Shown one piece after another: positions 1,064-27,313 of a stretch of 33,849 nucleotides of DNA. A program made the position numbers and the translations under genes. Source of the DNA: Planctomycetota bacterium (GTDB taxonomy: Bacteria > Planctomycetota > Phycisphaerae > UBA1845 > JANYLN01); NCBI GenBank assembly GCA_025357795.1, contig JANYLN010000245.1, forward strand, positions 1 to 33,849, written 5' to 3'. The notes beneath the pieces were generated by a model. The model searched no databases. It was not told the DNA's origin and was given only the letters and a program-made list of their open reading frames with translations. How positions within the stretch are numbered: the first letter of the stretch is position 1; every line of letters begins with the position of its first letter.

Positions 1064-1687
1064 ATGACTGCATCACAGGCGACATCCGCTCCGGTTTCAC
1101 AGGAAAAAGAAATACGCCTCGCTCGATGGTCAGCGGAGGCGGTGTTCTGGTGTTTCCTGGTTTCCGGCGGCACAAGTCTGATCCTCCAAGGCACGTTGAC
1201 GCGGCTACTGCGGTTCGTCCTGGGCAATACGACCCTAGCCATCACCACGGTATTGTGCGCCTTCCTGGCGGGGCTGGCGCTGGGCAGTTACATCGGGGGC
1301 CGGTTGTGCGATCGGAACCGCCGACTGCTGAGGACGTACGGGCTGCTGGAGGGTTCGGCGGCGGTGTTCTGCCTGCTGCTACCGGTGTGCATCGAGGCGC
1401 TCGAGCCGGCGTACCGCTGGATGTACGCGAATCTGCAGGATTCGCCTTTGACGCTAAGCCTGGCGCGGTTCCTGTTGTGCGGCGCGCTGGTCATCGGCCT
1501 GGCCAGCGGGATCACGCTGGGGTCGGCCGCGTACGCGGAAGCCAGCCGGTTCGAGGAGGCTGTCCGTGTAGCCCAGGATGCCTTGAACCTCGCCCGTCCT
1601 TCGAGGCAGATGATGCTGGCTGGGGAGATCGAGACGCAGCTGTCGCTCTACCGCGAGGGTAAGGCATATCACCTGCCTGAGAGATAA
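1064..1687 (+). pseudogene. Chimeric remnant: spermidine-synthase-type membrane N-terminus joined to a TPR C-terminus
   Basis: The 207-residue product has two unlike parts. Residues about 20-155 look like the membrane region of fused MFS/spermidine-synthase proteins: a first helix, then TRLLRFVLGNTTLAITTV and an AGLALGSYIGGRLCDRN motif, then two further helices. At about nucleotide 1520 the sequence switches without a frame change to a soluble segment (AAYAEASRFEEAVRVAQDAL ... LYREGKAYHLPER) that reads like the last tetratricopeptide repeat and end of a TPR protein. The spermidine-synthase catalytic domain is absent. Some planctomycete proteins of this class carry C-terminal TPRs, so one internal deletion in a single gene would explain it. 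An ATG at 1064 was chosen over a TTG at 1004 because conserved sequence begins after it; neither has a clear ribosome site. Its TAA overlaps the next ATG by one base. Confidence 0.6.
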
Positions 1688-3516
1688 TGGGCGCAGTCAT
1701 CCGGAACACGATCGCGATGCTGGGTTTGCTGGCGGGGCTGATGCCCTTGCCAGGTGGGCTCGTCGGGTGCGGCCGGGAGGGGCAGGTGGGCGAGGGGCAG
1801 CCGGTCCGGCCCCTGCGGGTGCTAAACCAGTCGGAGGTGCAGACGCTCGACCCGGCGCGAATCAGCTGGCAGATAGATATCCGGGCGGCTGACCTGCTGT
1901 TCGACGGGCTGACGCAGACGCACCCCAGGACGCTGGAGAACATCCCCTGTATCGCCGAGCGCTGGGACCTTAGCGAGGACGGAAAGACGTACACCTTTCA
2001 TCTGCGGCGGGACGCTACCTGGAGCAACGGCGACCGGGTGACGGCGCATGATTTCGCGTGGTCGTGGCAGCGGGTGCTTGATCCGGAGACGGCTGCGGAC
2101 TACGTCTACCTTATGTACGTCATTCGGAACGCCCAGCGATACAACGAGGGGCGGGCGTGCAGCCTGGAGCCGCTCCCGCGGCAAGCGGAACTGAAGGTCA
2201 AGGGCAAGTTCGTCGAGGCGATGCCATTCGATCAGGTCGGCATCAAGGCGATGGATGACTATACGCTGCGGGTTGAGTTGGTGGCGGCGCTACCGTACTT
2301 CCTCGACCTGACCAGTTTCATCACCTTCAAACCGGTGCATCGGCCAACCATCGAGAAGTTCACGATTCGCCAGGACGGCCGCGTCGTGGACGTTGATACC
2401 GATTGGTACCTGCAGCCCGGCAACCTCGTGTGCAATGGCCCGTACGTGCTGGAGAGTTGGGTGCAGCGGCAGTACATGCGGTACGTCAAGCGGGCGGGCT
2501 ATTACGATGCAGAGAAGATCCCCAGCCAGCGGATCGAGATCCTGCCGATATCCGATCCATCGACCGCGTTCAAGATGTATGACCAAGGCGAGGCGGACAT
2601 CATGCCGTTTCCGCCGTTGCGACGGGTGAGCGAGGCGCTCATTCGGCGGGCGGAGCAGGGGCGGCGCGACGATGTGCATGTGTCGCTGAAGTTCGGGACG
2701 TACTTTTATCGCCTGAACACGCAGCGAAAGCCCTTCGATGATCCGCGGGTGCGGATGGCCTTCTCGCGGGCGATCGATCGCGAGCTGCTGACGCGCAGGC
2801 TGTGCTGGCTGGGAGAGAAGCCCGCGACGTCGCTGGTGCCGCCGGGGGTTCGCGGCTACGAGAGCCCGACGATGGCGGGGTTCGACCCCGAGGCGGCCAG
2901 GAAGCTGCTGGCGGAGGCGGGCTATCCAGCGGGCAAGGGGCTGCCCGTGGTTGGGATCATGTTCAACAAGGAGGCCTCGCACCAGGCGATCGCCGAGTCG
3001 ATCAAGGACATGTGGAGCAAGTATCTTGGGGCGACGGTGGAGCTGCTGAGCCTGGACCGCGGCTCGCTGCGGCAGAAGGTGCAGTCGCTGGATTATTCGG
3101 CGGCCCGGGCGGGCTGGTATGGGGACTATCTCGACCCGATCACGTTCCTGGACATGTTCATGACGGCCCCGGAGGGGGGCGGCGGGAATAACGACACGGG
3201 CTTTTCCAATCCGGAGTACGACCACTTGATCACCGAAGCGATGCGGGAGTCCGACGCGAAGCGGCGCAACGGACTGATGCGCCGGGCGGAGGAGATCCTC
3301 GTGGTTGAGCAGTTGCCGATCATCCCGCTGTACTACTATGCGGATATGTACCTGTTCCGGCCGGAGGTGAAGGGGTTCTGGCCGAACCAGATGGGGATAA
3401 ACCCGCTGCGGTGGGCAGAGGTGGGAATGGCGGGGGACAGCAAACAGGGAGACAAGGAGGCAGGGAGACAAGGAGCCGCGACACAGGCGAAGGGAACGGC
3501 AGGGGGGCGGTCATGA
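1687..3516 (+). CDS. Peptide ABC transporter substrate-binding lipoprotein, first copy (OppA/DppA family)
   Basis: This 609-residue protein is a family 5 extracellular solute-binding protein that captures peptides outside the inner membrane and delivers them to the permeases encoded next. A signal sequence ends in a lipobox (LVGC, Cys28), so it should be lipid-anchored. Family signatures are visible: LDPARISWQID, the lobe segment AADLLFDGLTQTHPRTLENIPC, YTFHLRRDATWSNGDRVTAHDF at about residues 100-120, and DDPRVRMAFSRAIDREL in the second half. Length is normal for the family. The ATG overlaps the TAA of the upstream remnant, and its own TGA overlaps the permease ATG, so it is translated as part of the operon. 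The last 25 residues are low-complexity and are encoded by a 15-bp direct repeat (3445-3475), which has probably altered the original C-terminus. The natural ligand cannot be read from sequence. Confidence 0.9.
   Translation: MGAVIRNTIAMLGLLAGLMPLPGGLVGCGREGQVGEGQPVRPLRVLNQSEVQTLDPARISWQIDIRAADLLFDGLTQTHPRTLENIPCIAERWDLSEDGKTYTFHLRRDATWSNGDRVTAHDFAWSWQRVLDPETAADYVYLMYVIRNAQRYNEGRACSLEPLPRQAELKVKGKFVEAMPFDQVGIKAMDDYTLRVELVAALPYFLDLTSFITFKPVHRPTIEKFTIRQDGRVVDVDTDWYLQPGNLVCNGPYVLESWVQRQYMRYVKRAGYYDAEKIPSQRIEILPISDPSTAFKMYDQGEADIMPFPPLRRVSEALIRRAEQGRRDDVHVSLKFGTYFYRLNTQRKPFDDPRVRMAFSRAIDRELLTRRLCWLGEKPATSLVPPGVRGYESPTMAGFDPEAARKLLAEAGYPAGKGLPVVGIMFNKEASHQAIAESIKDMWSKYLGATVELLSLDRGSLRQKVQSLDYSAARAGWYGDYLDPITFLDMFMTAPEGGGGNNDTGFSNPEYDHLITEAMRESDAKRRNGLMRRAEEILVVEQLPIIPLYYYADMYLFRPEVKGFWPNQMGINPLRWAEVGMAGDSKQGDKEAGRQGAATQAKGTAGGRS
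3445..3475 (+). repeat. 15-bp direct repeat inside the end of the first binding-protein gene
   Basis: CAGGGAGACAAGGAG occurs twice, at 3445-3459 and 3461-3475, with one base between. On the minus strand it reads CTCCTTGTCTCCCTG, a low-complexity unit of a kind scattered in many bacterial genomes. It is translated in frame as part of the hydrophilic tail of the binding protein. Confidence 0.8.
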
Positions 3517-4472
3517 GCACGTGGTTGATCCGCCGACTGCTTGCGCTGCCGGTGGTGCTGCTGGTGATCTACACGGTATCGTTCCTGCTGGTAGAGGCGG
3601 CGCCGGGCGATCCGGTGCTGGGGCAGCGGGATCGCATCCCGCCGCGGGTCGTGGTCGATCGGCTGCGGTACATGTACAACTATGATATGCCGATGTGGCA
3701 GCGGTATGGGGTGTGGCTGGGGCAGTACGTGAGGGGGGACCTGGGCACCAGTACCAGCTACGGCCATCAGCCTGTGGCGCAGCTGGTCGGGCCGGCGTTT
3801 GTGCGGTCGGCGGCGCTGGGGTTTATGGCGTTAGCGCTAGCGGTGGTGGTTGGGACGGTGGTTGGGATCGTCGCGGCGACGCATCAGAACCAGTGGATCG
3901 ACCAGGCATCGCTCGTGCCGGTGCTTTTGGGGATCAGTCTGCCGAGTTTCGTGACAGCCGCGGTGCTGCAGATTCTCTTTGCGGTAGTGGTGCCGGTGTT
4001 CGCGCTGGGGGGCTGGCCGGATGGCTGGGGCGAGGTGCTGTATCATCTGACGCTGCCGGCGATCGCGCTGGCGATGCCGATCGTGGCGTACGTGAGTCGA
4101 TTGATGCGGGCGAGCATGATCGAGACGCTGCGGATGGATTTCGTGCGGACCGCGAGGGCCAAAGGGGCCTCGCCCGGGCGGGTCGTGTTCAAGCATGCGC
4201 TGCGGAACGCCTTTTTGCCGGTGCTGAGCTTCCTGGGGCCGGCGGCCGCGGCGGTTATGACGGGTTCGTTCGTGGTCGAGCAGGTGTTCCGGTTGCCAGG
4301 GATGGGAGATTTCTTCGTCAAGGCGGTGCTGGACCGCGATCGGCGGATGGTGCTGAGCATCGTGCTGGTCTATGCGGCACTGCTGGTGACGTTCAATGTC
4401 GTGACAGACATGATGTACGGTGTGCTGGACCCGCGGATCCGGGTGCAGGAAGAGAAGGGGGCCGGCTCATGA
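3513..4472 (+). CDS. Peptide ABC transporter permease, first copy (OppB/DppB family)
   Basis: This 319-residue inner-membrane protein forms half of the first peptide pore. It opens with the standard first helix (MSTWLIRRLLALPVVLLVIY) and the SFLLVEAAPGDPV motif of OppB-type permeases, followed by about five more hydrophobic segments. The ATPase-docking EAA loop is clear (DFVRTARAKGASPGRVVFKHALRNAFLPVL), as is the C-terminal VLDPRIR. Start: the ATG at 3513 overlaps the previous TGA (ATGA) and lies behind a G-rich stretch that can serve as ribosome site; a longer reading from 3411 merely runs through the preceding gene. Its TGA in turn overlaps the ATG of the OppC-type gene. Confidence 0.93.
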   Translation: MSTWLIRRLLALPVVLLVIYTVSFLLVEAAPGDPVLGQRDRIPPRVVVDRLRYMYNYDMPMWQRYGVWLGQYVRGDLGTSTSYGHQPVAQLVGPAFVRSAALGFMALALAVVVGTVVGIVAATHQNQWIDQASLVPVLLGISLPSFVTAAVLQILFAVVVPVFALGGWPDGWGEVLYHLTLPAIALAMPIVAYVSRLMRASMIETLRMDFVRTARAKGASPGRVVFKHALRNAFLPVLSFLGPAAAAVMTGSFVVEQVFRLPGMGDFFVKAVLDRDRRMVLSIVLVYAALLVTFNVVTDMMYGVLDPRIRVQEEKGAGS

Positions 4473-5374
4473 CGCTTGCCCATAGCGGCACGACCCTGCC
4501 GCCGTCATCCCCGGCGAGTGGGCCCCAGGCACAAAGTTACTGGTCAAAGGCGTTCAAACGGTTGCGGCGTAACCGCACGGCCGTCGCCAGCGGTGTGCTC
4601 CTGGTCGTGATCTTCCTGGCGTGCTTTGCGGCATGGCCCTGGGCGGCGAAGATGTATTCGCAGACCGACTACCAGCACACGTTCGCGGGTCCGAGCGTGA
4701 AGCATGTGCTTGGGACTGACGAGCATGGGCGGGACTACTTCGCGCAGATCCTCTACGGCGGGCGGATTTCGCTAACGGTGGGGTTCCTGGCGGCGAGCGT
4801 GGCTGTGTGCATCGGGACGGTCTGGGGGCTGGTGGCTGGGTACTTCGGCGGGCGAACCGACGCATTCATGATGCGTATAGTAGATGTATTGTACTCGCTG
4901 CCGTACATATTACTGGTTGTGTTACTTACACTTGTGTTCGGTCGCGACTGGAGAGTGCTGTTCCTGGCGATCGGGGCAGTCAGTTGGCTGACGATGGCCC
5001 GGGTGATCCGCGGGCAGGTGCTGCAGTTGAAGGCGATGCCGTTTATCGAGGCGGCGCGGGCGCTGGGGCTGCCGACCCGGCGGATCCTGCTGGTGCACAT
5101 GCTGCCGAACCTGGCTGGTCCGATATTGGTCTACGCGACGTTGACGGTGCCGCAGGCGATCCTGCAGGAATCCTTTCTCAGTTTCCTGGGAATTGGAATG
5201 CCGCCGGATTACCCCACGTGGGGGGCGCTAGCCCAGCAGGTAACGCAGATCAATTCGATCGCCAACGACTGGCATTTGATCTTGCCGCCTTGTGTGGCCT
5301 TGAGCATTACGCTGTTGGCCCTGAACTTTCTGGGCGACGGCCTGCGGGATGCGCTGGATCCGCAGAGCAGGTAG
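4469..5374 (+). CDS. Peptide ABC transporter permease, first copy (OppC/DppC family)
   Basis: The 301-residue partner permease has the usual OppC N-terminal cytoplasmic lead (SYWSKAFKRLRRNRTAVASG), the LGTDEHGRDYFAQILYGGRISLTVGF motif after the first helix, the EAA loop (MPFIEAARALGLPTRRILLVHMLPN) and the closing LNFLGDGLRDALDPQ. The start ATG overlaps the previous stop (ATGA). A patch at about 4866-4945, coding for one membrane helix, uses many A/T-ending codons (ATA, GTA, TTA, CTT, ACA) unlike the GC-rich codons around it. The stop codon sits inside a 9-bp tandem repeat that starts the following intergenic mosaic. Confidence 0.93.
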   Translation: MTLAHSGTTLPPSSPASGPQAQSYWSKAFKRLRRNRTAVASGVLLVVIFLACFAAWPWAAKMYSQTDYQHTFAGPSVKHVLGTDEHGRDYFAQILYGGRISLTVGFLAASVAVCIGTVWGLVAGYFGGRTDAFMMRIVDVLYSLPYILLVVLLTLVFGRDWRVLFLAIGAVSWLTMARVIRGQVLQLKAMPFIEAARALGLPTRRILLVHMLPNLAGPILVYATLTVPQAILQESFLSFLGIGMPPDYPTWGALAQQVTQINSIANDWHLILPPCVALSITLLALNFLGDGLRDALDPQSR

Positions 5375-5558
5375 AACAGGTAGAAGAAGGTGTTGGGCGT
5401 TGTCGGCGGAGCCCGGCATGGCAAGCGTTCGTTGCTATTTGTCAGTGGTTATTGGCAAAGGATCGGCGGGCGGCGTAGGCTATCGTCGAGGCAATGGCCG
5501 CAATCTGTTACAAATAACGATTAACAAGCAACAATTGAGAGCTGTTACAGGAATTCGC
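5368..5558 (+). repeat. Repeat-bearing, AT-richer intergenic mosaic before the second transporter set
   Basis: The interval opens with CAGGTAGAA twice in tandem (5368-5376, 5377-5385), overlapping the stop of the permease gene. It continues with an AT-richer stretch (about 5430-5460 and 5508-5550) that contrasts with the GC-rich genes on either side. No gene is visible in it. It is the only sizeable gap between the two transporter sets and may hold a secondary promoter, but I see no convincing -35/-10 pair. Confidence 0.5.
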
Positions 5559-7877
5559 ATGCGTATACGGACCATTCTTCTGGCCGCCCCGGTCGTGGTG
5601 TTGATGGCCTTCGCGGCTGCCTACCTGGTCGCCAGGCCATACTTCAGCCATCGCGTCGACCAGATGACGATGATGTACCCGTCCGAGCCGGAGACTCTCA
5701 ACCCGATCCTATCGACGACGCTGTCGGCGGGCATTATCGAGAGTTTCCTGTTCGACGGCCTGACTGATCTGGATGAAAACCTCGAGATTATCCCGCAACT
5801 GGCGGAACGGTACGATCTGGCGCAGGGGAGCCGGCTGTACTTCTCGACGCCGGACGATGCGGCGGCCGGGGCGGCCAGGATCCGCGAGCACCAGGCCGAC
5901 TGGGCGAAGGTCAAGATCCGCGAGGTGTCCGTTGAGGCGGATACGGTGAGCCTGCGGCTCGATCAGGCGGGGACGGCCTACCAGGAGACCGTTTTCGGCT
6001 GGATCGCGCCGCTGAAGACCGTGCCAGTGCGGCGCTGGACGGGGGGCTTTGCCAAGGACCTGTCGCTGCAGGGCAAGCCGGTTACCACCGATACGCTGAA
6101 CCAGTGGGTCGAGAAGAACAAGGCGGCGGCTTCGGCCTGGCCGCGGGTGTTGTACGTCTGGAAGAACACGTCGGCCAGTTACGAGATCTTCACCGTTGGG
6201 GCGGACGCGGCGTTTGTCGACGACCTGCAGAGGCGGTTCGCGGAGTTCGTGGGTGCCAAGGTCGAGCCGGTCAAGCCGGCGGTTGTGACGGCAGAAGTGC
6301 CGGCCAAGGCGGTGGCGAGTGGTCCTGCGTCCGGTCCAGCGCAGGCTTCGGCGTCAGCCCCCGCGACGGTCCCGGCGAGTTCGGCGGTCCCGGAGGGCAT
6401 GCGTCTGAACCTGGCGGGCCCGCTGAAGGTCCGCTTCGAGAGCGAGTGGCCCGCCCAGGACGAGCCGGTGATCACGTTCCATCTTCGCAAGGACGCCATC
6501 TGGCATGATGGCAAGCCTCTGACCGCCCGGGACGCCCGTTTCACCTACGAGGCGCTCATGAGCGAGCAGAACGCCTCGCCACGGCGGTCGGACTTCGAGC
6601 TGATCCGTCGCGTGGACGTGCCCGACGACTATACCTTCGTCGTGACGTACAAGGAGCCGTACTCGCCTTGCCTGTACTCGTGGGGGATGCCGCTGCTGCC
6701 TGAGCACCTGCTGGGCGACAAGCCGAACCTACGCAAACTCGAAGGCGACTACAATCGCCTGCCCGTGGGGACGGGGCCGTTCCGCATCGCCGAGTGGGTG
6801 ACGGATCAGTACATCAAGCTGGAGCGATTCGACGGGTACTGGGAGGGCAAGGCGCACCTGCCGGCGATCACGTTCCGGGTGATCCCGGATACCACGATCA
6901 GCCAGATGGAGTTCCAGACGCGTGGCTTCGATTATACGGCCCTGGATCCGCACCAGGTCCAGCGGTTCAAGAAGGATCCGCAGTACGATACGCACCGCTA
7001 CCCGAGCAACAGTTATGCGTACGTCGGCTGGAACCTCCAGCGGCCGATCTTCAAGGACAAGCGGGTCCGGCACGCACTGGCGCACGCGATCGACATCGAT
7101 GCGGTGATCCAGTACGTCATGTACGGCAACGGCACGCCGTGCACGGGTCCGTATGCCCCGGTGACCCCGTGGTTCAACCCGGACATCAAGCCCCTGGAGT
7201 ACAACCCGCAAAAGGCGAAGCTGTTGCTGGCGGAGGCGGGCTGGAAGGACACGGACGGCGATGGCGTGGTGGACAAGGACGGCCAGCCGTTCCACTTCAC
7301 GATCATCATTCCCAGCGGCAACCCGATCGGCCAGGACTTCGCTGTGCTGGTCAAGGATTACCTGCGGGTGGTGGGCATCGGCGTCAACATCAACATCTAC
7401 GAGTGGACGGTCTACATCGAGAAGTACATCGATGTGCGGAACTTCGATGCGTGCATCATGTCCTGGTCGCTGGGCTACGACCAGGACCTCTACCAGATCT
7501 GGCATTCCAGCCAGATCCAATTGCCGCGGTCGCTGAACTTCATCTCGTATGCGAATCCGGAGGTCGACCGGCTGATCGAGAAGTCGCGGACAGAGTTCGA
7601 CCTGGAGAAGGTCAAGCAGTACACCCACCGCATTCAGGCGCTGATCTACGACGACCAGCCGTACTGCTTCCTGTTCTACCGGATGGCGAACGTCGCGATC
7701 CCGAAGAACTCGTACTTCGTCAAGCGGCCTGATCCAGAGCGGCCTAGGCAGTGGCTGGAAGAGCCGATCCGGCCGACGAAGCGCGGCGTGACGTTCTACC
7801 AGCGGTGGTGGGCGCGGACATCGCCGCAGATGGCGCCGGTGGGGGATGCCGTGAAAGTGATCGATACCGGAAACTAG
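5559..7877 (+). CDS. Peptide ABC transporter substrate-binding protein, second copy, with large internal insertion
   Basis: At 772 residues this family 5 binding protein is clearly longer than its roughly 500-600-residue relatives. The first 90 residues are typical (MMYPSEPETLNPILS; ESFLFDGLTDLDENLEIIPQ), and normal similarity resumes at about residue 303 (ITFHLRKDAIWHDGKPLTARDARFTYEALM). Between them, residues about 88-302 form an extra segment: a mixed alpha/beta part, then an Ala/Pro/Ser-rich linker (about 250-278). Later landmarks are intact (LPVGTGPFRIAEW; FKDKRVRHALAHAIDIDAVI; a DTDGDGVVDKDG loop that looks calcium-binding). The N-terminus is one hydrophobic helix without a lipobox cysteine, so it is probably membrane-anchored. 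The ATG at 5559 has only a modest CAGGA site; longer upstream readings lack coding character. Confidence 0.9.
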   Translation: MRIRTILLAAPVVVLMAFAAAYLVARPYFSHRVDQMTMMYPSEPETLNPILSTTLSAGIIESFLFDGLTDLDENLEIIPQLAERYDLAQGSRLYFSTPDDAAAGAARIREHQADWAKVKIREVSVEADTVSLRLDQAGTAYQETVFGWIAPLKTVPVRRWTGGFAKDLSLQGKPVTTDTLNQWVEKNKAAASAWPRVLYVWKNTSASYEIFTVGADAAFVDDLQRRFAEFVGAKVEPVKPAVVTAEVPAKAVASGPASGPAQASASAPATVPASSAVPEGMRLNLAGPLKVRFESEWPAQDEPVITFHLRKDAIWHDGKPLTARDARFTYEALMSEQNASPRRSDFELIRRVDVPDDYTFVVTYKEPYSPCLYSWGMPLLPEHLLGDKPNLRKLEGDYNRLPVGTGPFRIAEWVTDQYIKLERFDGYWEGKAHLPAITFRVIPDTTISQMEFQTRGFDYTALDPHQVQRFKKDPQYDTHRYPSNSYAYVGWNLQRPIFKDKRVRHALAHAIDIDAVIQYVMYGNGTPCTGPYAPVTPWFNPDIKPLEYNPQKAKLLLAEAGWKDTDGDGVVDKDGQPFHFTIIIPSGNPIGQDFAVLVKDYLRVVGIGVNINIYEWTVYIEKYIDVRNFDACIMSWSLGYDQDLYQIWHSSQIQLPRSLNFISYANPEVDRLIEKSRTEFDLEKVKQYTHRIQALIYDDQPYCFLFYRMANVAIPKNSYFVKRPDPERPRQWLEEPIRPTKRGVTFYQRWWARTSPQMAPVGDAVKVIDTGN

Positions 7878-7923
7878 CGTAACGCAAGGTGTGCGTTGCA
7901 CACGAGGATGGGACCAGGCAACC

Positions 7924-8886
7924 ATGCTGACGTTCATTATACGACGATTGCTGATCAGCATCCCGATTTTGATCGGGATCACGCTGGTCAGCTTCTTCAT
8001 CATCCACCTGGCGCCGGGCAGTCCATATCCGGGCCTGGAGATGAACCCCAAGGTCAGCCCCGAGGTTCGGGAGCTGATGAAGAAGGCCTATCATTTCGAC
8101 GAGCCGCTGCCGAAGCGGTACTACATGATCATGCGCGACATGCTGACGGGGGAGCTGCGGAGTTTCAAGGATGACCAGCCCGTGCTGCAGAAGATCGGCA
8201 ACCGGCTGCCGGCGACGTTGGCGCTGAACGCGGTGGCCCTGATCTTCACGGTGGCCGGGGCGGTTCCCTTGGGGATCTACGCCGCCCGGTATCGAGGGAC
8301 GTGGCGGGACCAGGCGGTGACGGTGATCAGCTTCATGGGCATTGCGCTGCCGGGGTTCTGGATCGCGTACATGCTGCTGCTGGTGGTGGTGGGCCAGATG
8401 CACGTTCCGGTGCTGGGCATGACGACGTACGGCATGCTCGTGCCGAATTCAGGCGTCGGCCTGGCGGACCGGATCTGGCACCTGTTCCTGCCGTCGCTGA
8501 TCCTGTCGCTGGGCGGGATCGCGGCCGAGAGCCGTTACATGCGCGGCAGCATGACCGACACGCTGATCCAGGACTATGTGCGGACAGCGCGGGCGAAGGG
8601 GCTGCCCGAAGAGCAGGTAGTCTACAAGCATGCCCTGCGGAACGCCCTTTTGCCGATGATCACGATCCTGGGCTTGATGCTGCCGGGCCTGCTGGGGGGG
8701 GCGGTGATCATCGAGACGATCTTCGCCTATCCGGGCATCGGCCGGATGGCGTATGACTCAGTGCTCTCGCGGGACTATCCGACCATTATGACCCTGAATA
8801 CGATTACCGCTGCGCTGGTGCTGACGGGCAACCTGATCGCCGACGTACTGTACGCCGTGGTCGATCCGAGGATTCGTTTCGAATGA
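7924..8886 (+). CDS. Peptide ABC transporter permease, second copy (OppB/DppB family)
   Basis: This 320-residue inner-membrane permease is the OppB partner for the second binding protein. It begins MLTFIIRRLLISIPILIGI, followed by SFFIIHLAPGSPYPG, several helices, the EAA loop (DYVRTARAKGLPEEQVVYKHALRNALLPMI) and VVDPRIRFE at the end. It differs from the first copy in a longer periplasmic segment after helix 1 (MNPKVSPEVRELMKKAYHFDEPLPKRY), so the two sets are diverged paralogues rather than a recent duplication. The ATG at 7924 lies 46 bases after the binding-protein stop. Its TGA overlaps the next ATG. Confidence 0.93.
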   Translation: MLTFIIRRLLISIPILIGITLVSFFIIHLAPGSPYPGLEMNPKVSPEVRELMKKAYHFDEPLPKRYYMIMRDMLTGELRSFKDDQPVLQKIGNRLPATLALNAVALIFTVAGAVPLGIYAARYRGTWRDQAVTVISFMGIALPGFWIAYMLLLVVVGQMHVPVLGMTTYGMLVPNSGVGLADRIWHLFLPSLILSLGGIAAESRYMRGSMTDTLIQDYVRTARAKGLPEEQVVYKHALRNALLPMITILGLMLPGLLGGAVIIETIFAYPGIGRMAYDSVLSRDYPTIMTLNTITAALVLTGNLIADVLYAVVDPRIRFE

Positions 8887-9806
8887 CGATTGCACAGACA
8901 CAACCCGTATCCGACCCGATGGGCCTGCCGGCGACGCGGCGGTACTCGCCGTGGGACGAGTTCGTGAAGCGCTTCCGGCGGAACAAGCCGGCGGTGCTGT
9001 CGCTGGCGATCCTGGTGGTCCTGGCGACCTGCGCGGTGGTCTTCTTCACGATGGACGTGACGGGCCATTACTGGCCGTACAACCCGATGGCCCCGGACCT
9101 GAAGGCCAAGATGGAGGGGCCGAGCGCCGCTCATCCGCTGGGCACGGACAACCTGGGCCGCGACGTGATGACGCGGATGCTGCACGGCACGCGGATCAGC
9201 CTGACGGTCGGGTTTGTGGCTGTGAGTGTTTCGGTCACGATCGGTGTTTTGATCGGGGCGATTGCGGGCTATTTCGGCGGGATGGTCGACGGCATCCTGA
9301 TGCGCTTCGTTGATATGATGATGTGCTTTCCGACGTTCTTTTTGATCCTGACGGTGGTGGCCCTTTTGGAGCCGAACATCTGGAACATCATCATCGTGAT
9401 CGGCCTGACAAGTTGGACGGGCACCGCGCGGTTCGTGCGGGCGGAGTTCCTGTCGCTGCGCGAGCGGGACTTTGTACTGGCGGCGAGGGCGGGGGGGCTG
9501 AGCAACCGGCGGATCATCTTCCGGCACATCCTGCCCAATGCGCTGGCGCCGGTGGCGGTATCGGCGGTCCTGGGCATTGCCGGGGCGATCCTGACCGAGG
9601 CGAGTTTGAGTTTCCTGGGCTTTGGGGTGCAGCCGCCGGCCCCGACGTGGGGGAACATTCTGGCGGACGGGAAGAGCTACATCCTGGATGCCTGGTGGCT
9701 GATCGTGTTCCCGGGCGTGGCGATTTTCGTGACGACGCTGAGTTTTTACCTGGTGGGCGAGGGGATGCGCGAGGCGCTGGATCCGAGGCTGCGGATTGGT
9801 ACGTGA
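8883..9806 (+). CDS. Peptide ABC transporter permease, second copy (OppC/DppC family)
   Basis: This 307-residue permease pairs with the gene before it through an ATGA overlap. It shows the OppC lead (PWDEFVKRFRRNKPAVLSLAI), LGTDNLGRDVMTRMLHGTRISLTVGF, the EAA loop (RDFVLAARAGGLSNRRIIFRHILPN), the helix-capping SLSFLGFGVQPPAPTWGNIL motif and VGEGMREALDPRLR at the end. All family landmarks are in order and the length is normal. A gap of 88 bases, without clear signals, separates it from the ATPase gene. Confidence 0.93.
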   Translation: MTIAQTQPVSDPMGLPATRRYSPWDEFVKRFRRNKPAVLSLAILVVLATCAVVFFTMDVTGHYWPYNPMAPDLKAKMEGPSAAHPLGTDNLGRDVMTRMLHGTRISLTVGFVAVSVSVTIGVLIGAIAGYFGGMVDGILMRFVDMMMCFPTFFLILTVVALLEPNIWNIIIVIGLTSWTGTARFVRAEFLSLRERDFVLAARAGGLSNRRIIFRHILPNALAPVAVSAVLGIAGAILTEASLSFLGFGVQPPAPTWGNILADGKSYILDAWWLIVFPGVAIFVTTLSFYLVGEGMREALDPRLRIGT

Positions 9807-9894
9807 CGGCGAAGTCAGTTGTGAACGGCAACGATGATGACACCCCTGGACTGCGGCAAGGGGCTAGTTGGGTCGGTCAAGGTGCGAGGCGCTT

Positions 9895-10920
9895 GTGAAC
9901 AACGATACGGTACTGGATGTTCGGAACCTTAAGACGTACTTTTTCGGCGACAACGGGACGATCCCGGCTGTCGACGACGTCTCGTGGTCCGTCAAACGGG
10001 GTGAGACGCTGGCGCTGGTCGGCGAGAGCGGCTGCGGTAAGACGGTTTCGGCCCTGTCGGTCATGCGGCTGATCCCGATGCCGCCGGGCAAGATCGTCGG
10101 CGGGCAGATCCTGCTGCGGACCGATGGGCAGGAGGCCGACCTGGTGCAGGTGTCCGAGCCGCAGATGCGCAGGATCCGCGGCAGCCGGATCGCGATGATC
10201 TTCCAGGAGCCGATGACGAGTCTGAACCCGGTCTTTACGATCGGCGATCAGATCGCGGAGGCGGTGCAGTTACACGAGAACGTCTCGCGGCGCGAGGCGT
10301 GGAACCGCGCGGTGGAGATGCTCAAGCGCGTGGGCATCCCTGACCCGATGCGCCGGGCGGAGGAGTACCCGCACCAGATGTCGGGCGGGATGCGCCAGCG
10401 GGTGATGATCGCGATGGCGCTTTCCTGCAGCCCGGACCTGTTGATCGCGGATGAGCCGACGACGGCCCTGGATGTGACGATCCAGGCCCAGATTCTGGAC
10501 CTGCTGGCGAAGCTGCAGGCCGAGACGGGCATGAGCGTCCTTCTGATCACGCACGACCTGGGGGTGGTTGCCCAGATTGCGAACCGCGTGGCGGTGATGT
10601 ACGCCAGCAAGATCGTCGAGATGACCGACGTGAACAACCTTTTTGCCGACCCGCTGCACCCGTACACGCAGGGGCTGTTCCGGAGCGTGCCGCGGCTGGG
10701 TGCCAAGGAAGGGCGGCTCGAGACGATCCCCGGCGTGGTGCCCAGTCCGACGCACTTCCCGCCGGGCTGCAAGTTCCACCCGCGATGCCCGTTGGGCAGC
10801 GGTGACAAGCGGTGCCAGACGCAGGAGCCGGCACTGCTGGAGGTCAAGCCGGGGCACTGGGTGGCCTGCTGGAAGACGTGCGGCTACGAGGAACTCCACA
10901 AGAAGATTGTTGGCGGTTAA
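9895..10920 (+). CDS. Peptide ABC transporter ATP-binding protein (OppD/DppD family)
   Basis: This 341-residue cytoplasmic ATPase powers peptide import. Motifs in order: Walker A GESGCGKT (residues 43-50), Q-loop in [13 protein letters not shown], signature SGGMRQR, Walker [13 protein letters not shown], and switch histidine in ITHDLG. The C-terminal oligopeptide/dipeptide extension carries [12 protein letters not shown] and further cysteines, the conserved set seen in OppD/DppD proteins. A GTG at 9895 is chosen because a GAGG site lies five bases before it and family similarity starts just after ([11 protein letters not shown]); a TTG at 9868 would add nine unrelated residues. With the next gene it supplies the only ATPase pair for both permease sets upstream. 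Confidence 0.92.
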
Positions 10921-10977: not shown

Positions 10978-12078
10978 ATGAACGAATCTGATCCGCGTGG
11001 TGCCGCGACAATGAAGAATACGGAACATGCGTCCGCCCGCCCGCCGAGCGAACGGCCTCTGCTGCAGGTCGACGACCTGCGGACGTGGTTTCCCATTCGG
11101 GCCGGGGTGTTCAGCAAGACAGTCGGCCACGTCAAGGCGGTCGATGGCGTTTCGTTTTCGCTACAGCGGGGCAAGACGCTGGGCCTGGTGGGTGAGAGCG
11201 GTTGCGGCAAGACGACCGTTGCACGGACGGTGCTGCGGCTGATCCCAGCGACGTCGGGGCAGGTGCTTTTCGACGGACTGGACGTGCTTGCGCAGGGCCA
11301 GCAGGAGATGCGGCAGTTGCGCCGGCGGATACAGATCATCTTCCAGGACCCGATCGGTTCGTTGAACCCGCGCATGACGGTTGCCCAGATCGTCGGCGAG
11401 ACGCTGCGGGTTCACAAGGTCGTCGGGCGAAGCGAGTGGCGCGACCGCGTGCAGGAACTGCTCCGCAAGGTGGGTCTGCCTCCCGAGGCAATGAACCGCT
11501 ACCCGCACGAGTTTTCCGGGGGGCAGCGGCAGCGGATCGGCATCGCGCGGGCGCTGGCCCTGGAGCCGGATCTGATCGTCTGCGACGAGCCGGTCTCGGC
11601 CCTGGACGTCTCGATCCAGTCGCAGATCCTGAACCTGCTGCAGGACCTGCAGGACGAGATGAAGCTCAGCTACCTGTTCATCGCGCACAACCTGGCTGTC
11701 GTCGAGCATTTCTGCGACGAGGTAGCGGTGATGTACCTGGGCAAGATTGTCGAGCAGGCCTCCTCGGGTGCGCTCTATGCCGACCCGCGGCATCCGTATA
11801 CCCAGGCACTGCTGATGGCGGTACCCGAGCCCGATCCGACCAAGCGGATGAAGCGGGCGACCCTGTCAGGCGAGGTGCCTAGTCCGGTTAATCCGCCATC
11901 TGGATGTGTTTTCAGCCCGCGGTGTCCGTTTGCGACGGATCAGTGCCGGCAGGTCCGGCCCGAACTGCGGCCGCTGCCGGGCGACCCGACACACCTGGTT
12001 GCCTGCCACTATGCCGAGCAGATGCGGCCGGACAGCCTGAGAAAGAAACTCGCCGAAGGCGCCCCATCTCAGCAATAA
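10978..12078 (+). CDS. Peptide ABC transporter ATP-binding protein (OppF/DppF family)
   Basis: This 366-residue ATPase is the heterodimer partner of the OppD-type protein. It has Walker A GESGCGKT (72-79), Q-loop [13 protein letters not shown], signature SGGQRQR, Walker [13 protein letters not shown] and switch histidine in IAHNLA, then the C-terminal peptide-transporter extension ([21 protein letters not shown]). The segment [20 protein letters not shown] before Walker A is typical of OppF rather than OppD. The start is uncertain: ATG 10978 (used) and ATG 11011 both lack a good ribosome site, and conserved sequence begins after both. It is the last gene of the transporter operon; a 6-bp hairpin follows at 12088-12106. 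Confidence 0.92.
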
Positions 12079-12268: not shown

Positions 12269-14212
12269 ATGACCTCGAGAGGGAAGCTCGTTGCAGGGGT
12301 TGCACTTTTCGGCCTGTTGTTTGGCGCCAGTTGGGGCTTTGCCCAGACCACCCAGCCGGCGGAACGGGCGGTTGGCGCGGTGAGCCGCGCTGCCGGTTCG
12401 ATTCTGGACGTGGTCCCGGCGGACGCCTGGGGCGCGGTGGGTGTGAACAATCTTGACGAATTCGATACGGAAGTGATGCGGCTGGGCCAGAAGCTTGGCC
12501 TGCCGATCATGTTCGCTCCGTCAGGCCTGATCCAGATGGGCCTGAACATCACGCAGGGCTTCAATCCGGCCGGGGGGATCGGCGCGATCGTCCTGAACGG
12601 GGCGAAGTACCCCGGCGCGGCCACGTGGGGCATGTTCCAGGGCTTCCCGGTACCGGTGGTGCTGGCGATCGCGGCGTCGGACAGCAAGGCCCTCATCCAG
12701 TCGATGAGCGGCAAGGAGACCGAGGATCCGAATGTTTCGGCCGTGACGCTGCAGGGCGAGTCGGTCTTTGCGGTGGTGAAGGGCGGGTACGTCCTGATCG
12801 GTCCGGACGTCGAGATCCTCAAGAGCTTGGTGGTCGAAGGTGCCGCCGCGACACAGATGGCGACCGAAGCCCTCAAGCCGGGCTTCGTCAAGCAGGCTAC
12901 CAGCTCAAAGGTGTTCATCTACGTCAATGCCAAGCCGGTGCTGGCGACGTACGGGCCGGTGCTCAAGGGCGTGCTGGCCTTTGCGGCGGCGGCTGCGCAG
13001 GGCGCCCAGGCGGGCGCCGGGACGGGGCCGGCGCTGATGATGATGGGGAGTTCCTACATTGACGTGCTGAGCAAGCAGGTCGACAAGCTGCTGATCTTCC
13101 TGGACCTGGAGCCCAATGGCCTGCACCTGTCGGCGCTGGCGACGTTCCAGCCGAACACCCTGCTGGGGAAGGTCTTTGCGGCCGCCAAGCCGAGCGGCAA
13201 GCCGTTGCTGGCGGGCCTGCCGGGCGGGACGTTCATCGTTGCGGCGGCGCAGGAGCAGACGGGCACCGAGTTTGCCCAGCAGTTGGCGGACATGTTCCTC
13301 AAGCCGTACCTGGATGCGATGCGGGCTTCGGGCCAGCCGGCGATGGCGGCTGCCGCCAGCCAGCAGGCCGAGCTCACCAGCGTCCGCATTCAGCTGGCCA
13401 AATTGCAGAAGACCGTGCAGATGGCCGCGTACGCACTGCCCAAGGGCGAGGAAGGGTCACTGGCGATCGTGCTGACGGGCCAGTTCACCGATACCGCCAA
13501 GGCGTATGAGCTGATCAAGCAGAACGTCAACAGCGAGGTGCAGTCGGCGGGCGAGCAGCAGCCCAAGGTCAAGGACTTCCTGCAGGCCGTGACCTATACC
13601 GAGGCCGCCGAGACGGTCGAGGGCGTGAAGGTGCACACCCTGTTGGTGGATCTGACGCAGTTGCCCAAGCTTCTGGACGTCCCCGAGAACAAGGCTAACG
13701 AGGCCATCAAGGCTAGCGAGGCCATCAAGGTCATCAAGGTCCTGTTCGGCTCGGACGGCCTGAAGGTTCGGATCGCCGTTGGCGAGAAGAACATCATAGC
13801 GACCCTGGGTGGCGGCGAGACGTTCCTGAAGGACGCGCTGGCGGCGGCCAAGAGCGGCAAGGCCCCCTTGGCAACGCAGCCGGCGGTCGTGAAGGTCTCG
13901 GAGCGTCTGCCGAAGGATCGCGTGAGCGTAATGTACATCTCGGCCGAGAATCTGCTGCGGGTGGTCGATCGCGTCTCCAAGGCGGTCGGCGAGCCGGGCC
14001 TGCCGTTCCAGGCGGGCGAGACCAGTGCCCCGCTGGTGCTGGCGGTGATCGGCGATCCGCTGGGTCTGCACGTGACGCTGTACGTGCCGACGGAGCTGGC
14101 GGTGAGCGTTCGGGGTATGATCAACCAGGCCCAGATGCAGCAGCAACGGTCACAGGAACTGCGTGGCCAGACGACCGAGCCGAAGACTGCCGAGCCGGCG
14201 CCGGAGTTCTAA
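12269..14212 (+). CDS. Large secreted protein of unknown function, tandem copy A
   Basis: I do not recognise this 647-residue protein. It has a clear signal peptide (MTSRGKLVAGVALFGLLFGA, cleavage near GFA/Q) and then an ATQPA-type linker, so it is exported. The body is Ala/Val/Leu-rich with alternating strands and helices. Landmarks are VPADAWGAVGVNNLDEFD (about 49-66), GYVLIGPDVEILKSL (about 171-185), LLAGLPGGTFIVAA, and the C-terminal block PLVLAVIGDPLGLHVTLYVPTEL (about 588-610). The next gene has the same landmarks at nearly the same positions and is one residue shorter, so the two are diverged tandem paralogues. Start: ATG 12269 follows AAGGAG at a 6-base gap. An 18-bp in-frame tandem duplication occurs at 13691-13726. 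A substrate-sensing or surface role is possible but not shown. Confidence 0.85.
   Translation: MTSRGKLVAGVALFGLLFGASWGFAQTTQPAERAVGAVSRAAGSILDVVPADAWGAVGVNNLDEFDTEVMRLGQKLGLPIMFAPSGLIQMGLNITQGFNPAGGIGAIVLNGAKYPGAATWGMFQGFPVPVVLAIAASDSKALIQSMSGKETEDPNVSAVTLQGESVFAVVKGGYVLIGPDVEILKSLVVEGAAATQMATEALKPGFVKQATSSKVFIYVNAKPVLATYGPVLKGVLAFAAAAAQGAQAGAGTGPALMMMGSSYIDVLSKQVDKLLIFLDLEPNGLHLSALATFQPNTLLGKVFAAAKPSGKPLLAGLPGGTFIVAAAQEQTGTEFAQQLADMFLKPYLDAMRASGQPAMAAAASQQAELTSVRIQLAKLQKTVQMAAYALPKGEEGSLAIVLTGQFTDTAKAYELIKQNVNSEVQSAGEQQPKVKDFLQAVTYTEAAETVEGVKVHTLLVDLTQLPKLLDVPENKANEAIKASEAIKVIKVLFGSDGLKVRIAVGEKNIIATLGGGETFLKDALAAAKSGKAPLATQPAVVKVSERLPKDRVSVMYISAENLLRVVDRVSKAVGEPGLPFQAGETSAPLVLAVIGDPLGLHVTLYVPTELAVSVRGMINQAQMQQQRSQELRGQTTEPKTAEPAPEF
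13691..13726 (+). repeat. 18-bp tandem duplication in coding sequence
   Basis: AAGGCTAACGAGGCCATC (13691-13708) is followed directly by a copy with one A-to-G change (13709-13726). It is translated as KANEAI KASEAI and followed by a partial third unit (KVIK). It lies in a helical charged stretch of secreted protein A. Confidence 0.9.
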
Positions 14213-14253
14213 CGGCGGCGGCAGGACTGCGAATTCGCAATCGATGAATTCCG

Positions 14254-14286
14254 GAGGGCGACGCCTTGTGCGTCGCCCTCTTTGTT
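14254..14286 (+). terminator. Rho-independent terminator after secreted protein A
   Basis: A perfect 11-bp stem pairs GAGGGCGACGC (14254-14264) with 14270-14280 around the loop CTTGT, followed by TTTGTT. It lies about 40 bases after the stop codon at 14212 and separates the two paralogous genes into different transcripts. Confidence 0.88.
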
Positions 14287-14377
14287 CGTGCAAGAGTCCG
14301 TGCAACGATAATTCCGCAGCCGGGTGATTCAGTCGTCCCTCCGGGACGAACAGCAACAGCGATGTTGTTCTTGCACG
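14287..14377. repeat. Nested palindromic element between the two secreted-protein genes
   Basis: CGTGCAAG (14287-14294) and its reverse complement CTTGCACG (14370-14377) flank an inner hairpin CGTCCC-TCC-GGGACG (about 14334-14348) and further partial pairing (GAACA/TGTTC). The arrangement, with a GTCCCTCCGGGAC core, looks like a short dispersed palindromic (REP-like) unit. Only one copy is evident in this window. The rest of the 280-base gap up to 14492 shows no gene. Confidence 0.5.
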
Positions 14378-14492
14378 GGTCCTAACTGGTGGGCTGTCGG
14401 TGACTGGCCTGCCAGTGGGTGCGATGGTAACATTGCTGATGCTCTGTGAAGGCATATCACGTGCAGGCGGTCGATAGGGCAGAGGTTTTTTC

Positions 14493-16433
14493 ATGAGATC
14501 AACAAATTGCGTACTCCCGCGGATGCTTCTGGCTGCTATGCTCGCATGGCCCGTATGCCTCGCCGCGGCAGTTGAGGACAGGGCGGCGGGCCAGGTCGAA
14601 CGGGGGCCGGCCATCAAGGCGTTTCTACAGGCGCTGCCCGCGGATGCCCAGGTTGTGGTCGCGGTGCAGGACCTGGAGAACCTCGATTTCGACTTCATGC
14701 ACCTGACGCGGGCGCTGCGTTCGCCGCTCGGGGTTTTGCCATCGGGCCTGGTGCAGTACCTGCTGGGCAGCAGTGAGCAGGTGGACCTGGCGGGCGTGCA
14801 CGGATTCGTCGTGCTGGACGAGTATCGTTTCAAGGACGCGGTGTCGTTCCAGTGGCTGGGCGATCAGGCTGCCCTACTGCTGGCGATCTCCGCCAAGGAC
14901 CCGACCAAGCTGCTCGAGGCCCTGGGGGCGGAGCGGGCGGAAGCCAAGGACTACTGGACGTTCAGACTGCAGGAGCAGCAGGTCTTCGCGACGATCCGCG
15001 AGAAGGTCGTGCTCGTCGGCCCGGACTTGAAGGTGCTCCGCGAGGTCACCCAGCCGGTGAGGGAAAGGGCGCCGGCCGGGATGCAGGCTGACCTTGCCGC
15101 GGTAGAGGCCTGTGCGGACAGTGATGTCTGGATGCTGGGGAGCGTGCGGCAGATGCTGGCGGCGAATCGCGGGGTGCTGCGCAGCCTGTGCACGATGGGG
15201 ATTGCGATGGCTCGTGGCCAGTCGGACGCGCCCAAGACGACCGGCGTGTGCGATGCGGCGTTTGCCTCGCTGTACGTTGAAATGTTGATGATGCAGGTGA
15301 ACGACCTGGCGGTGACGGTGGACATCAGCCGGCAGGGGGTGCGGATGAGCTACGTGGTGACCTATCCGCCTGGCAGCGTGCTGGGCCAGGCGTGGGAGGC
15401 CGGGGAATCGATGAATCTTCGGTCGCTAGCGGGGTTGCCGGCCGGGAAGTTCATCTTTGCAGGTTGGATGGGCAAGCGCGCCGTGGCTGCGATGCAGACA
15501 GTCGCGGATCTTGCGATGCCGCTGTGGGGGATGATGGCGGGCGCCTTGGACATCGATCACAAGGAATGGCCTGCGAGCGGACCTGCCTGGCTGGGCTCTG
15601 CGCGGCAGATCCTCGAGCAGTTCGAATGCGCCGGTTTGGCGTGTTACACGCAGCCGGAAGGGGCCAAGGGGCTGTTGGCGGTGGTGGGTACGGTCGGCTG
15701 CAAGGACGTCGATAAGGCGCTGTCGATGATTCGGCATTACGCGGGCAGGGATCGCAAGGGCGACGACGCGCCGTCGGAGGATGCGGGCGGCAAGAAAGGC
15801 TCTGGTTTGCGGTACGTGGCGGATGCGGAGGAGGTCGAGTCGGTGCCGGTGGATCACGTGCGGTTTGGCGAGACTCCAGCGCCTGCGGCTTCCGAGGCGG
15901 CTTGCGACGAGGACCATGTGTTGCGGGTTCTGCTGGGCGAGCCGTCTTTCCTGGTCCGCCTGGCGCGTAAGGAGGGGCTAATCGTTGCCGGTGTCGAGGG
16001 CGAGCCGAAGATGCTGGCCCGGGCGCTGTCGCTCAAGGCGGGCGAGGGGAGTCTGGCGGACGACCCACGGATCGTCTCGGCTGGCGACGGCATGCCGACC
16101 CGGCGGGCGGTCGAAGGGTATCTTGCGACGGATACCTTCGCCGCGTTCGTTGCCCGCAGTGTGACCGAGGCGATGAAACTGGGTGGCCAGGCCGTACCCG
16201 GAGCCTGGTCTGAGCACAAGAGCGACAATCTCATTTGGCTGGCGGTTTCGGGTGATTCCGCTGCGACGCGGGCGGACCTGTACATGCCGACCCAGGAGAT
16301 TCAGACGCTGCGAGACCTGGGTATGTGGGGCGTGGGCTACGCGACCCAGCGGGTCGTGCAGAAGCAGGGGATCCGCATGCCGAATGGGCCCGCCGAAGTG
16401 AAGGACGAGAAGGGGTCGGCGGCGCCGTTCTAA
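14493..16433 (+). CDS. Large secreted protein of unknown function, tandem copy B
   Basis: This 646-residue exported protein is the diverged partner of copy A; I do not recognise the family. A signal peptide (MLLAAMLAWPVCLAAA, cleavage near residue 26) precedes LPADAQVVVAVQDLENLDFD (about 48-67), which matches the start of the mature part of copy A. EKVVLVGPDLKVLREV (about 169-184) and the C-terminal IWLAVSGDSAATRADLYMPTQE (about 580-601) also match in order and position. It has about seven cysteines, most of them in the mature part, whereas mature copy A appears to have none. Charged low-complexity sequence lies at about 410-435 (GRDRKGDDAPSEDAGGKKG). ATG 14493 has an AGAGG site about eight bases upstream. 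The stop overlaps that of the convergent peroxiredoxin gene by three bases or so. Confidence 0.85.
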   Translation: MRSTNCVLPRMLLAAMLAWPVCLAAAVEDRAAGQVERGPAIKAFLQALPADAQVVVAVQDLENLDFDFMHLTRALRSPLGVLPSGLVQYLLGSSEQVDLAGVHGFVVLDEYRFKDAVSFQWLGDQAALLLAISAKDPTKLLEALGAERAEAKDYWTFRLQEQQVFATIREKVVLVGPDLKVLREVTQPVRERAPAGMQADLAAVEACADSDVWMLGSVRQMLAANRGVLRSLCTMGIAMARGQSDAPKTTGVCDAAFASLYVEMLMMQVNDLAVTVDISRQGVRMSYVVTYPPGSVLGQAWEAGESMNLRSLAGLPAGKFIFAGWMGKRAVAAMQTVADLAMPLWGMMAGALDIDHKEWPASGPAWLGSARQILEQFECAGLACYTQPEGAKGLLAVVGTVGCKDVDKALSMIRHYAGRDRKGDDAPSEDAGGKKGSGLRYVADAEEVESVPVDHVRFGETPAPAASEAACDEDHVLRVLLGEPSFLVRLARKEGLIVAGVEGEPKMLARALSLKAGEGSLADDPRIVSAGDGMPTRRAVEGYLATDTFAAFVARSVTEAMKLGGQAVPGAWSEHKSDNLIWLAVSGDSAATRADLYMPTQEIQTLRDLGMWGVGYATQRVVQKQGIRMPNGPAEVKDEKGSAAPF

Positions 16434-17008
16434 TGAGCGGGGCGCGTGGCGGGGGTTGTAGCCGGGCCAACCGGCTGGCTGGCGACGTCGGGATGGGCGC
16501 CGGCCTCGTCGATCTTTGCCAGCAGGACCTTGTTCTGGCCGGGGATGTCGGTCACCTTGCCAATCACGTGGATGACCTTGCCGGCCTTGTCGATCAGGAA
16601 GGTGCTTCGCCGGCCGTATTCCTGGCCCACGCCGAAGGCCTTGGCGACATTGTCATTGGGGTCCGACAGCAGGGTGAAGGGCAGTTCGTACTTGCCGCAG
16701 AATTCCTGGTGGCTCTTCTCGGAGTCTTTGCTGATGCCGATGACGACGGCATCGCGGCCAGTGAACTTCGGGTAGTCCTCCGCGAATTTCTGGGCCTCCA
16801 GCGTGCAGCCGCCGGTGAAGTCCTTGGGGTAGAAGTAGAGCACGACGAATTTCTTGCCGTGGTAGTCCTTGAGATGGATGGTCTGGCCGGACTGGTCTTT
16901 GGCCGCAACCGCTGGGGTCGGGTCGCCGACCTTGATTTCGGCGCGAGCATGGCTGGTCGACCAGCCGACGGCGGCGAGCAACAACACACACATGGTTCCG
17001 GTTTTCAT
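16430..17008 (-). CDS. Periplasmic peroxiredoxin, PrxQ/BCP type
   Basis: This 192-residue thiol peroxidase reduces hydrogen peroxide and organic peroxides. It carries a signal peptide (MKTGTMCVLLLAAVGWSTS, cleavage at ARA/E), so it acts outside the cytoplasm. The core is PrxQ-like: GDPTPAVAAKDQSGQTIHLKDY, then VVLYFYPKDFTGGC with the peroxidatic cysteine, then LPFTLLSDPN and STFLIDKAG. The second cysteine is not five residues on, as in E. coli BCP, but 36 residues on in HQEFCGKY, the spacing of the PrxQ subgroup that forms its disulfide through helix 3. ATG 17008 is fixed by a GGAGG site (minus strand, near 17015-17020); a start 33 bases earlier would spoil the signal peptide. The C-terminus is a Pro/Ala/Thr tail. 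Confidence 0.9.
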   Translation of the reverse strand: MKTGTMCVLLLAAVGWSTSHARAEIKVGDPTPAVAAKDQSGQTIHLKDYHGKKFVVLYFYPKDFTGGCTLEAQKFAEDYPKFTGRDAVVIGISKDSEKSHQEFCGKYELPFTLLSDPNDNVAKAFGVGQEYGRRSTFLIDKAGKVIHVIGKVTDIPGQNKVLLAKIDEAGAHPDVASQPVGPATTPATRPAH

Positions 17009-17188
17009 GCCAAGTTCCTCCGTCGCGATGCAGGGATGCAAAGCGAATCTTGTGATCCAGCCGCGATGCCAGATTCTTGGGGCTCTTCAGCATGCGGGCA
17101 AATTGGCGGCCTTCTTGTCCAAAAGCTGGCCTGGTCAGCCAAGCGAGTTCTGGTTGCCGTTGTCAGAACCAATCACTAACCCTGCCGT

Positions 17189-17728
17189 CTATAGCTGATC
17201 CCTCAGCATCTTGTAATAGCGGTTGAGGACCGGGCGCGGGACGTCCTGCAGGCCGGCGGGGGGTGGGTCGGCCATGGCGATCTTCTGCAGGGTCTGGCGG
17301 GCGGCGGCGCGGTTGTTCTGGAGCTGCATCATGGAGCGGTCGGCGTCGCCGAGGTCGCCGTCGGCCATCGAGCGGACCCACTCGACGATCATGGACTCGA
17401 CGTCCTCGTCGTTGGCCGGTCCGCTCACGCTGGGCGGCGGCGCGGCGGGAAGATCGGCGGCGGCGCGGCTGGGGGCGGCGCCTTCGGCGGCGGCCAGTTT
17501 TTCCTTGAGGAGTTGCCGTTCGGTGGCGCGGGCCTGCTCCTCCATCTTGCGCTTCTTGCGCTCCTCGTGCTCGTCGACGGGGGCCAGGTCGAACTCCTCG
17601 ACGGCGCCTTCGGCCATGGGCACGTAGAGGATATTCTGGCAGGTCGGGCACTTGCCCTTTTTGCCGCCGGCCTCGTCAGGGGCGCGGACCAGACTACCAC
17701 AGAAATTGCAGTGGAATTCGATCGCCAT
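17189..17728 (-). CDS. Zinc-ribbon protein of unknown function, coupled to der
   Basis: This 179-residue cytoplasmic protein begins with a CxxC...CxxC zinc ribbon (HCNFCG, KCPTCQ; residues about 7-32) of the form RAPDEAGGKKGKCPTC common in planctomycete proteins. A charged, probably coiled helix follows (EHEERKKRKMEEQARATERQLLKEKLAAAEG, about 58-90), then an Ala/Pro-rich linker and a C-terminal helical part (MIVEWVRSMADGDLGDADRS ... LNRYYKMLRDQL). No catalytic motif is visible. The ATG at 17728 comes one base after the der TGA and its GGAGG site lies inside the end of der, so translation is probably coupled. A role alongside Der in ribosome assembly is only a guess from position. Confidence 0.8.
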   Translation of the reverse strand: MAIEFHCNFCGSLVRAPDEAGGKKGKCPTCQNILYVPMAEGAVEEFDLAPVDEHEERKKRKMEEQARATERQLLKEKLAAAEGAAPSRAAADLPAAPPPSVSGPANDEDVESMIVEWVRSMADGDLGDADRSMMQLQNNRAAARQTLQKIAMADPPPAGLQDVPRPVLNRYYKMLRDQL

Positions 17729-17729
17729 G

Positions 17730-19091: not shown

Positions 19092-19123
19092 ATCTTCCAG
19101 CAAACCTTCCGGGGCAGTCGAAT

Positions 19124-19289
19124 GGCAGGCATAGGCCTGCCTTATGTTGAGTGGTGGGCAACAACCCACCCGATGGCCGGGGCAAACCGGCCCTTAGCCC
19201 TTTATTCTATCCGATTCCTGCGAGAGTGGCAGCAGGACGGGGGCTTTTCCGTGGCGCCGGCCAAAGCCGGAACCTCAAGATTGCCACTC
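19124..19289. repeat. Cluster of hairpins between der and the oxidoreductase gene
   Basis: The 207-base gap carries at least four palindromes. GGCAGGC/GCCTGCC (19124-19130 with 19135-19141). GGTGGG/CCCACC (19153-19158 with 19165-19170). GGCCGG/CCGGCC (19175-19180 with 19187-19192). CCGGC/GCCGG (19257-19261 with 19266-19270), itself enclosed by an 8-bp stem GAGTGGCA/TGCCACTC (19224-19231 with 19282-19289). The CCGGCCAAAGCCGG core resembles REP-type intergenic palindromes known from many bacteria. No gene is visible. The cluster lies upstream of der and downstream of the oxidoreductase gene on the minus strand, so it may act at an mRNA 3' end or as the leader of der. Confidence 0.65.
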
Positions 19290-24893: not shown

Positions 24894-25129
24894 GGTTCAC
24901 TTCCTCCTTGAAGTTCCCTGGCGGCTGGCTCCCTGCCACTAACCCTGCCTGTCTTACCAGAAATGGCCCACGGAAACTGTCACGGACCCCGGACCGGACG
25001 AATTCGGATGTCGCGCTTGCGAATATAGGCCGGCTCGGGCAGACTGTGGGGCTATCCGTGCCGTACGTGCAGTGGAAGTATGGCCCGCGGGTATGGATGT
25101 GATTGGCCATGGGATTCAAGGAGTTGCAC

Positions 25130-27307: not shown

Positions 27308-27313
27308 AAACGC

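Follow-up and report, generated by a model that had tools for sequence, protein, structure and literature searches.

A tandem pair of putatively exported planctomycete proteins from a DUF3352-like family often encoded downstream of oligopeptide transporter genes

Background

Operons of Opp/Dpp importers are built from standard parts, namely SBP_bac_5 binding proteins, permeases and ATPases with the oligo_HPY domain. The transporter genes upstream of the two genes described here, A and B, are all of these kinds. In contrast, neither A nor B shows a match to any family of Opp components, and the family to which they belong persists in genomes without Opp. A second point of comparison is provided by the proteins of DUF3352 (PF11832), which are similar in length to A and B. 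We know of no function for DUF3352, and membership of it would therefore explain little. A search of the available literature on DUF3352 and DUF4836 returned no papers. A third is TP0453 of Treponema, which is described as an outer-membrane protein of the inner face with amphipathic helices, proposed to carry lipids and glycolipids (PMC5421087). TP0453 differs from A and B in being a putative lipoprotein of only 287 aa, whereas A and B have about 647 aa and carry no lipobox or lipid anchor.

The two genes and their products

The window, that is, the whole stretch of planctomycete DNA that was analysed, is 33,849 nucleotides long and contains the pair at these positions:

12269..14212, + strand: gene A, putatively exported protein of 647 aa, an Opp-linked member of a class-wide, probably DUF3352-like family
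14493..16433, + strand: gene B, 646 aa, the tandem paralogue of A and the faster evolving copy

Both open reading frames are intact, with ATG at 12269 and 14493 and stop codons ending at 14212 and 16433, in agreement with an earlier note made from this DNA, which had described tandem proteins of 647 and 646 residues. As seen by BLASTP, A and B share 28% identity over about 600 residues (174 bits, E=9e-51), a similarity far beyond chance that extends over nearly their full length. The three common blocks that had been noticed are all aligned in register: VPADAWGAVGVNNL in A with LPADAQVVVAVQDL in B, YVLIGPDVEILKSL with VVLVGPDLKVLREV, and LYVPTELA with LYMPTQEI.

Protein A has no cysteines. Protein B has nine: two (C6 and C22) within the signal-peptide region, the remaining seven (207, 233, 253, 379, 384, 403 and 471) in the mature part, where the earlier note had counted several. 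This contrast has little informative value, because cysteine counts vary freely among family members, from 0 to 15, and it was rejected as a sign of function. From signal peptides assessed by eye, we infer that both proteins are exported. A lipobox was found in neither; A has no cysteine, and C22 of B is preceded by WPV.

Distribution of the family and its relationship to DUF3352

Within the order, 45 of the 61 genomes searched contained relatives of A; in the class, a profile of 43 sequences detected family members in 127 of 150 sampled genomes. Searched alone, A and B gave no convincing Pfam or NCBIfam match, and the family is without a model of its own in either collection. No convincing relative of solved structure was found by sequence. 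DUF3352 was not matched by A or B even at E<=10, so its curated cut-off was not reached; a search of the home genome with the DUF3352 model also returned zero matches, and none was seen in the f7 upstream copies (U, see below), which were scanned together with three f3 members. Among the 43 family members, 8 matched DUF3352 weakly (best E=1.6e-4), and every other Pfam family listed was matched by one member apiece. When profile A6 was compared by hhalign with nine planctomycete proteins that the DUF3352 model had picked up, a probability of 97.8 was obtained over 357 columns (E=1.1e-12, the value for a single comparison). The weak Pfam matches and the profile-profile match together indicate that the family is probably remote kin of DUF3352. 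Therefore, the description of the family as unrecognised stands as regards Pfam and NCBIfam models, but is too strong given the profile tie to DUF3352 and the presence of the family in most of the sampled class genomes.

An internal duplication, suggested by two similar halves in the predicted secondary structure, was rejected; the profile comparison of the halves gave a short and weak match (P=0.009).

History and maintenance of the pair

Trees were built from 61 and from 100 sequences, and both group A with B as sisters (supports of 99 and 100); they carry no bootstraps, the larger was made with FastTree, and their long branches were flagged. When B was searched against 114 genomes of the order, which apart from the home genome all come from taxonomic families other than that of the window, A was the closest sequence (163 bits, against at most 70 elsewhere) and no orthologue of B was found. 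The A/B pair itself was seen in the home genome only. The end branch of B (1.77) is about twice as long as that of A (0.89).

Other tandem pairs exist in related genomes. In f7, a much more distant paralogue, U, lies directly upstream of the A-like gene in 12 of the 13 loci having that gene; the possibility that B is the orthologue of U was rejected by the AU test (p=4e-11). Further pairs occur in four f11 loci, one f13 locus and one f17 locus, which were picked for having two matches close together in the search output, so that the frequency of pairs cannot be estimated from them. Since the pairs are placed separately in the trees, pairing appears to have arisen at least five separate times and would thus be recurrent.

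Conservation among the other 41 members reaches at least 80% in 34 columns; 26 of these are retained in A and 25 in B. The conserved residues lost by each partly differ: A has lost the Asp at 214 and 456, and in B the GGG motif is short of two glycines (A 514-515) and the proline at A 588 is missing. With conserved columns kept about equally well, both copies look maintained, and a decaying B is disfavoured. On sequence grounds, the pair is an old and genuine tandem duplication. The earlier statements that the two are too diverged for a recent duplication and that the pair is probably maintained are thus borne out, the second as an appearance.

The oligopeptide transporter neighbourhood

A long cluster of oligopeptide transporter genes precedes A, with two genes for binding proteins, two for ATPases and permease genes in pairs:

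1687..3516, + strand: first SBP_bac_5 oligopeptide-binding protein (Pfam domain)
3411..4472, + strand: first OppB-like permease (open reading frame; true start probably later)
3695..5374, + strand: first OppC-like permease (domains from about residue 281 of the open reading frame, and therefore a true start that is probably later)
5349..7877, + strand: second SBP_bac_5 oligopeptide-binding protein (842-aa open reading frame)
7891..8886, + strand: OppB-like permease
8883..9806, + strand: OppC-like permease
9868..10920, + strand: oppD-like ATPase (ABC_tran and oligo_HPY)
10978..12078, + strand: oppF-like ATPase (ABC_tran and oligo_HPY), the recurrent upstream neighbour of the family

The oppF-like gene ends 190 bp before A, and the two ATPases directly upstream of A are the only oligo_HPY ATPases of the home genome. 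The strongest new observation is a genomic one: a family gene is often located directly 3' of an Opp operon, in this order and in one relative outside it. A set of 88 loci contained 28 OppD/OppF-like matches above 200 bits, every one of them upstream of the family gene, on the same strand and within 5.5 kb; the 28 matches come from 17 loci, and the sampling of loci was non-random. In one of the 17 (L037), the match is probably a different ABC ATPase, because the oligo_HPY match of that genome sits on another contig. In L048, the genes for OppD, OppF, U and the A-like protein overlap by 4 nt. The same arrangement is displayed outside the order by L110, whose protein is sister to the main clade of the order in the tree. 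The association with peptide transporters that the earlier note had proposed to look for is therefore real.

The family does not occur only together with Opp, although the adjacency is conserved. An oligo_HPY match is absent from eleven f7 genomes, ten of which keep the family gene, and nearly all of the other class loci examined lack Opp in the vicinity. Since many relatives without Opp keep the family, Opp is not required, and as judged from these genomes the link between the family and peptide import is not obligatory.

Other genes near the family

Directly downstream of B, a peroxiredoxin (AhpC-TSA) gene (16430-17041, - strand) runs towards B, and the ends of the two genes share 4 nt. It is followed on the same strand by a gene for a 200-aa protein without a Pfam match (17189-17791) and an EngA/Der GTPase gene (17730-19169). 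In L044, L055, L061, L065 and L121, relatives of the last two are encoded 2-3 kb 3' of the family gene, a recurrence that may reflect an ancient, conserved neighbourhood. In L046, L047, L053, L057, L059, L060, L071, L072 and L110, the surroundings of the family gene include a Rex-like redox regulator (Put_DNA-bind_N and CoA_binding), mostly encoded upstream in divergent orientation; some of the same loci also share a protein of about 360 aa that has no clear match in Pfam. Additionally, a cobalamin adenosyltransferase gene lies directly 3' of the family gene on the same strand in f7 (L038, L039, L043, L059, L060, L072). Elsewhere in the window, 25103-28216 (+ strand) holds two adjoining genes for trypsin-like proteases, the first with PDZ domains and the second shorter, with a weaker Trypsin_2 match.

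Transcription and the intergenic region

One feature of the gap between A and B bears on transcription:

14253..14281, + strand: intrinsic-terminator-like hairpin, with a 12-bp stem and then a T-rich tail

The 190-bp gap between oppF and A yielded no such hairpin, and neither did all but one of the corresponding gaps in relatives. Read-through from the transporter operon is therefore possible. A may be transcribed as part of the Opp transcript, and B would be transcribed separately. No sigma-70-like promoter was found for A or B. The earlier suggestion that each gene has its own transcript is thus half borne out: the hairpin between A and B favours it, but with none detected in front of A, that gene may be read through from oppF.

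After the terminator-like hairpin, 14283-14377 contains more inverted repeats, CGTGCAAGA and TCTTGCACG, 73 nt apart. The A-B intergenic region folds better than its shuffles (z=-2.6).

Predicted structures

AlphaFold models of A (mean pLDDT 70, pTM 0.71) and B (mean pLDDT 65, pTM 0.67), both built on five-row alignments with the same rows, display a similar order of elements. In Foldseek searches of the PDB, TP0453 was the top match for both models, with a probability of 0.99. The match is weak: the best E values were 1.3e-3 for B and 6.6e-3 for A, none passing 0.001, with a TM of 0.35-0.41 by target length and an rmsd of 8-12. The two matches are not fully independent, because the models share alignment rows. 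The hydrophobic moments of the helices of A and B are mostly in the shuffled range, and amphipathicity is not clearly above that of shuffles.

Discussion

Taking identity and history jointly, A and B are best read as Opp-linked members of a DUF3352-like family, separated by a lineage-specific tandem duplication, a reading to which we give a probability of roughly 0.85. On this reading, both are non-lipidated, putatively exported paralogues of a family common across the class. A represents a subfamily inherited beside an oligopeptide ABC importer and possibly transcribed with it, and B came from a tandem duplication of A in this lineage, lies behind the terminator-like hairpin and has diverged faster with the core residues of the family kept.

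As to function, it can tentatively be proposed, from the resemblance of the models to TP0453, that A and B are periplasmic binders or carriers of hydrophobic or lipid-like ligands. They might act on the inner side of the outer membrane, and ligands would be bound or carried as has been proposed for TP0453. A may then be an envelope factor that is co-expressed with peptide import and dispensable for it, and the divergence of B may lie in its ligand or partner.

It is also possible, though again tentative, that the proteins are general envelope, stress or structural proteins without a ligand-carrier role, the synteny with Opp being inherited and functionally meaningless. The class-wide presence of the family and its persistence in genomes without Opp would be expected of such proteins; the survival of the Opp-to-family order across families at only about 25% protein identity would not.

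Rather unlikely is the view that A is a specific accessory of the oligopeptide importer, with B as a spare or specialised copy. Such an accessory might, for example, hand peptides over to the binding protein in the periplasm or open the outer membrane to them. This view draws on the recurrence of the family gene immediately behind oppF, which was seen in several of the order's families and in one outside relative, on the confinement of Opp matches to the upstream side of the same strand, and on the 4-nt overlaps in L048. However, the family gene is kept by ten of the eleven f7 genomes without an oligo_HPY match, Opp is absent near most class members examined, and the synteny may be mere inheritance. 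A heteromeric complex had been suggested by the earlier note, but evidence for one, or for a system of the two proteins, was not found, and an obligate heteromeric envelope complex of A and B is improbable. Pairs do recur (in f7 at 12 of the 13 loci that have the gene, at four loci in f11, and at one each in f13 and f17), but they look like separate duplications, and the locus holds a single copy in most relatives. In addition, A and B have a terminator-like hairpin between them, and B was found in the home genome only.

Least probable of all, and offered as speculation, the family might be a new periplasmic factor acting in outer-membrane permeability to peptides or in the hand-over of peptides or lipids to Opp, with repeated duplications giving specialised pairs.

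Conclusions

Returning to the DUF3352-like reading, the family is widespread and often follows a peptide transporter, and the tandem pair is therefore less unusual than the unnamed family behind it. Gene order links this putatively exported family to the uptake of oligopeptides over part of its distribution. It merits more attention than the A/B pair, which illustrates how family copies diverge after duplication. Being present in most sampled class genomes, unmodelled and repeatedly tied to peptide import, the family is a good target for the question of how nutrients or lipids are handled in planctomycete envelopes. If the resemblance to TP0453 is true, it would extend a spirochaete lipid-carrier or permeability fold to the planctomycetes.
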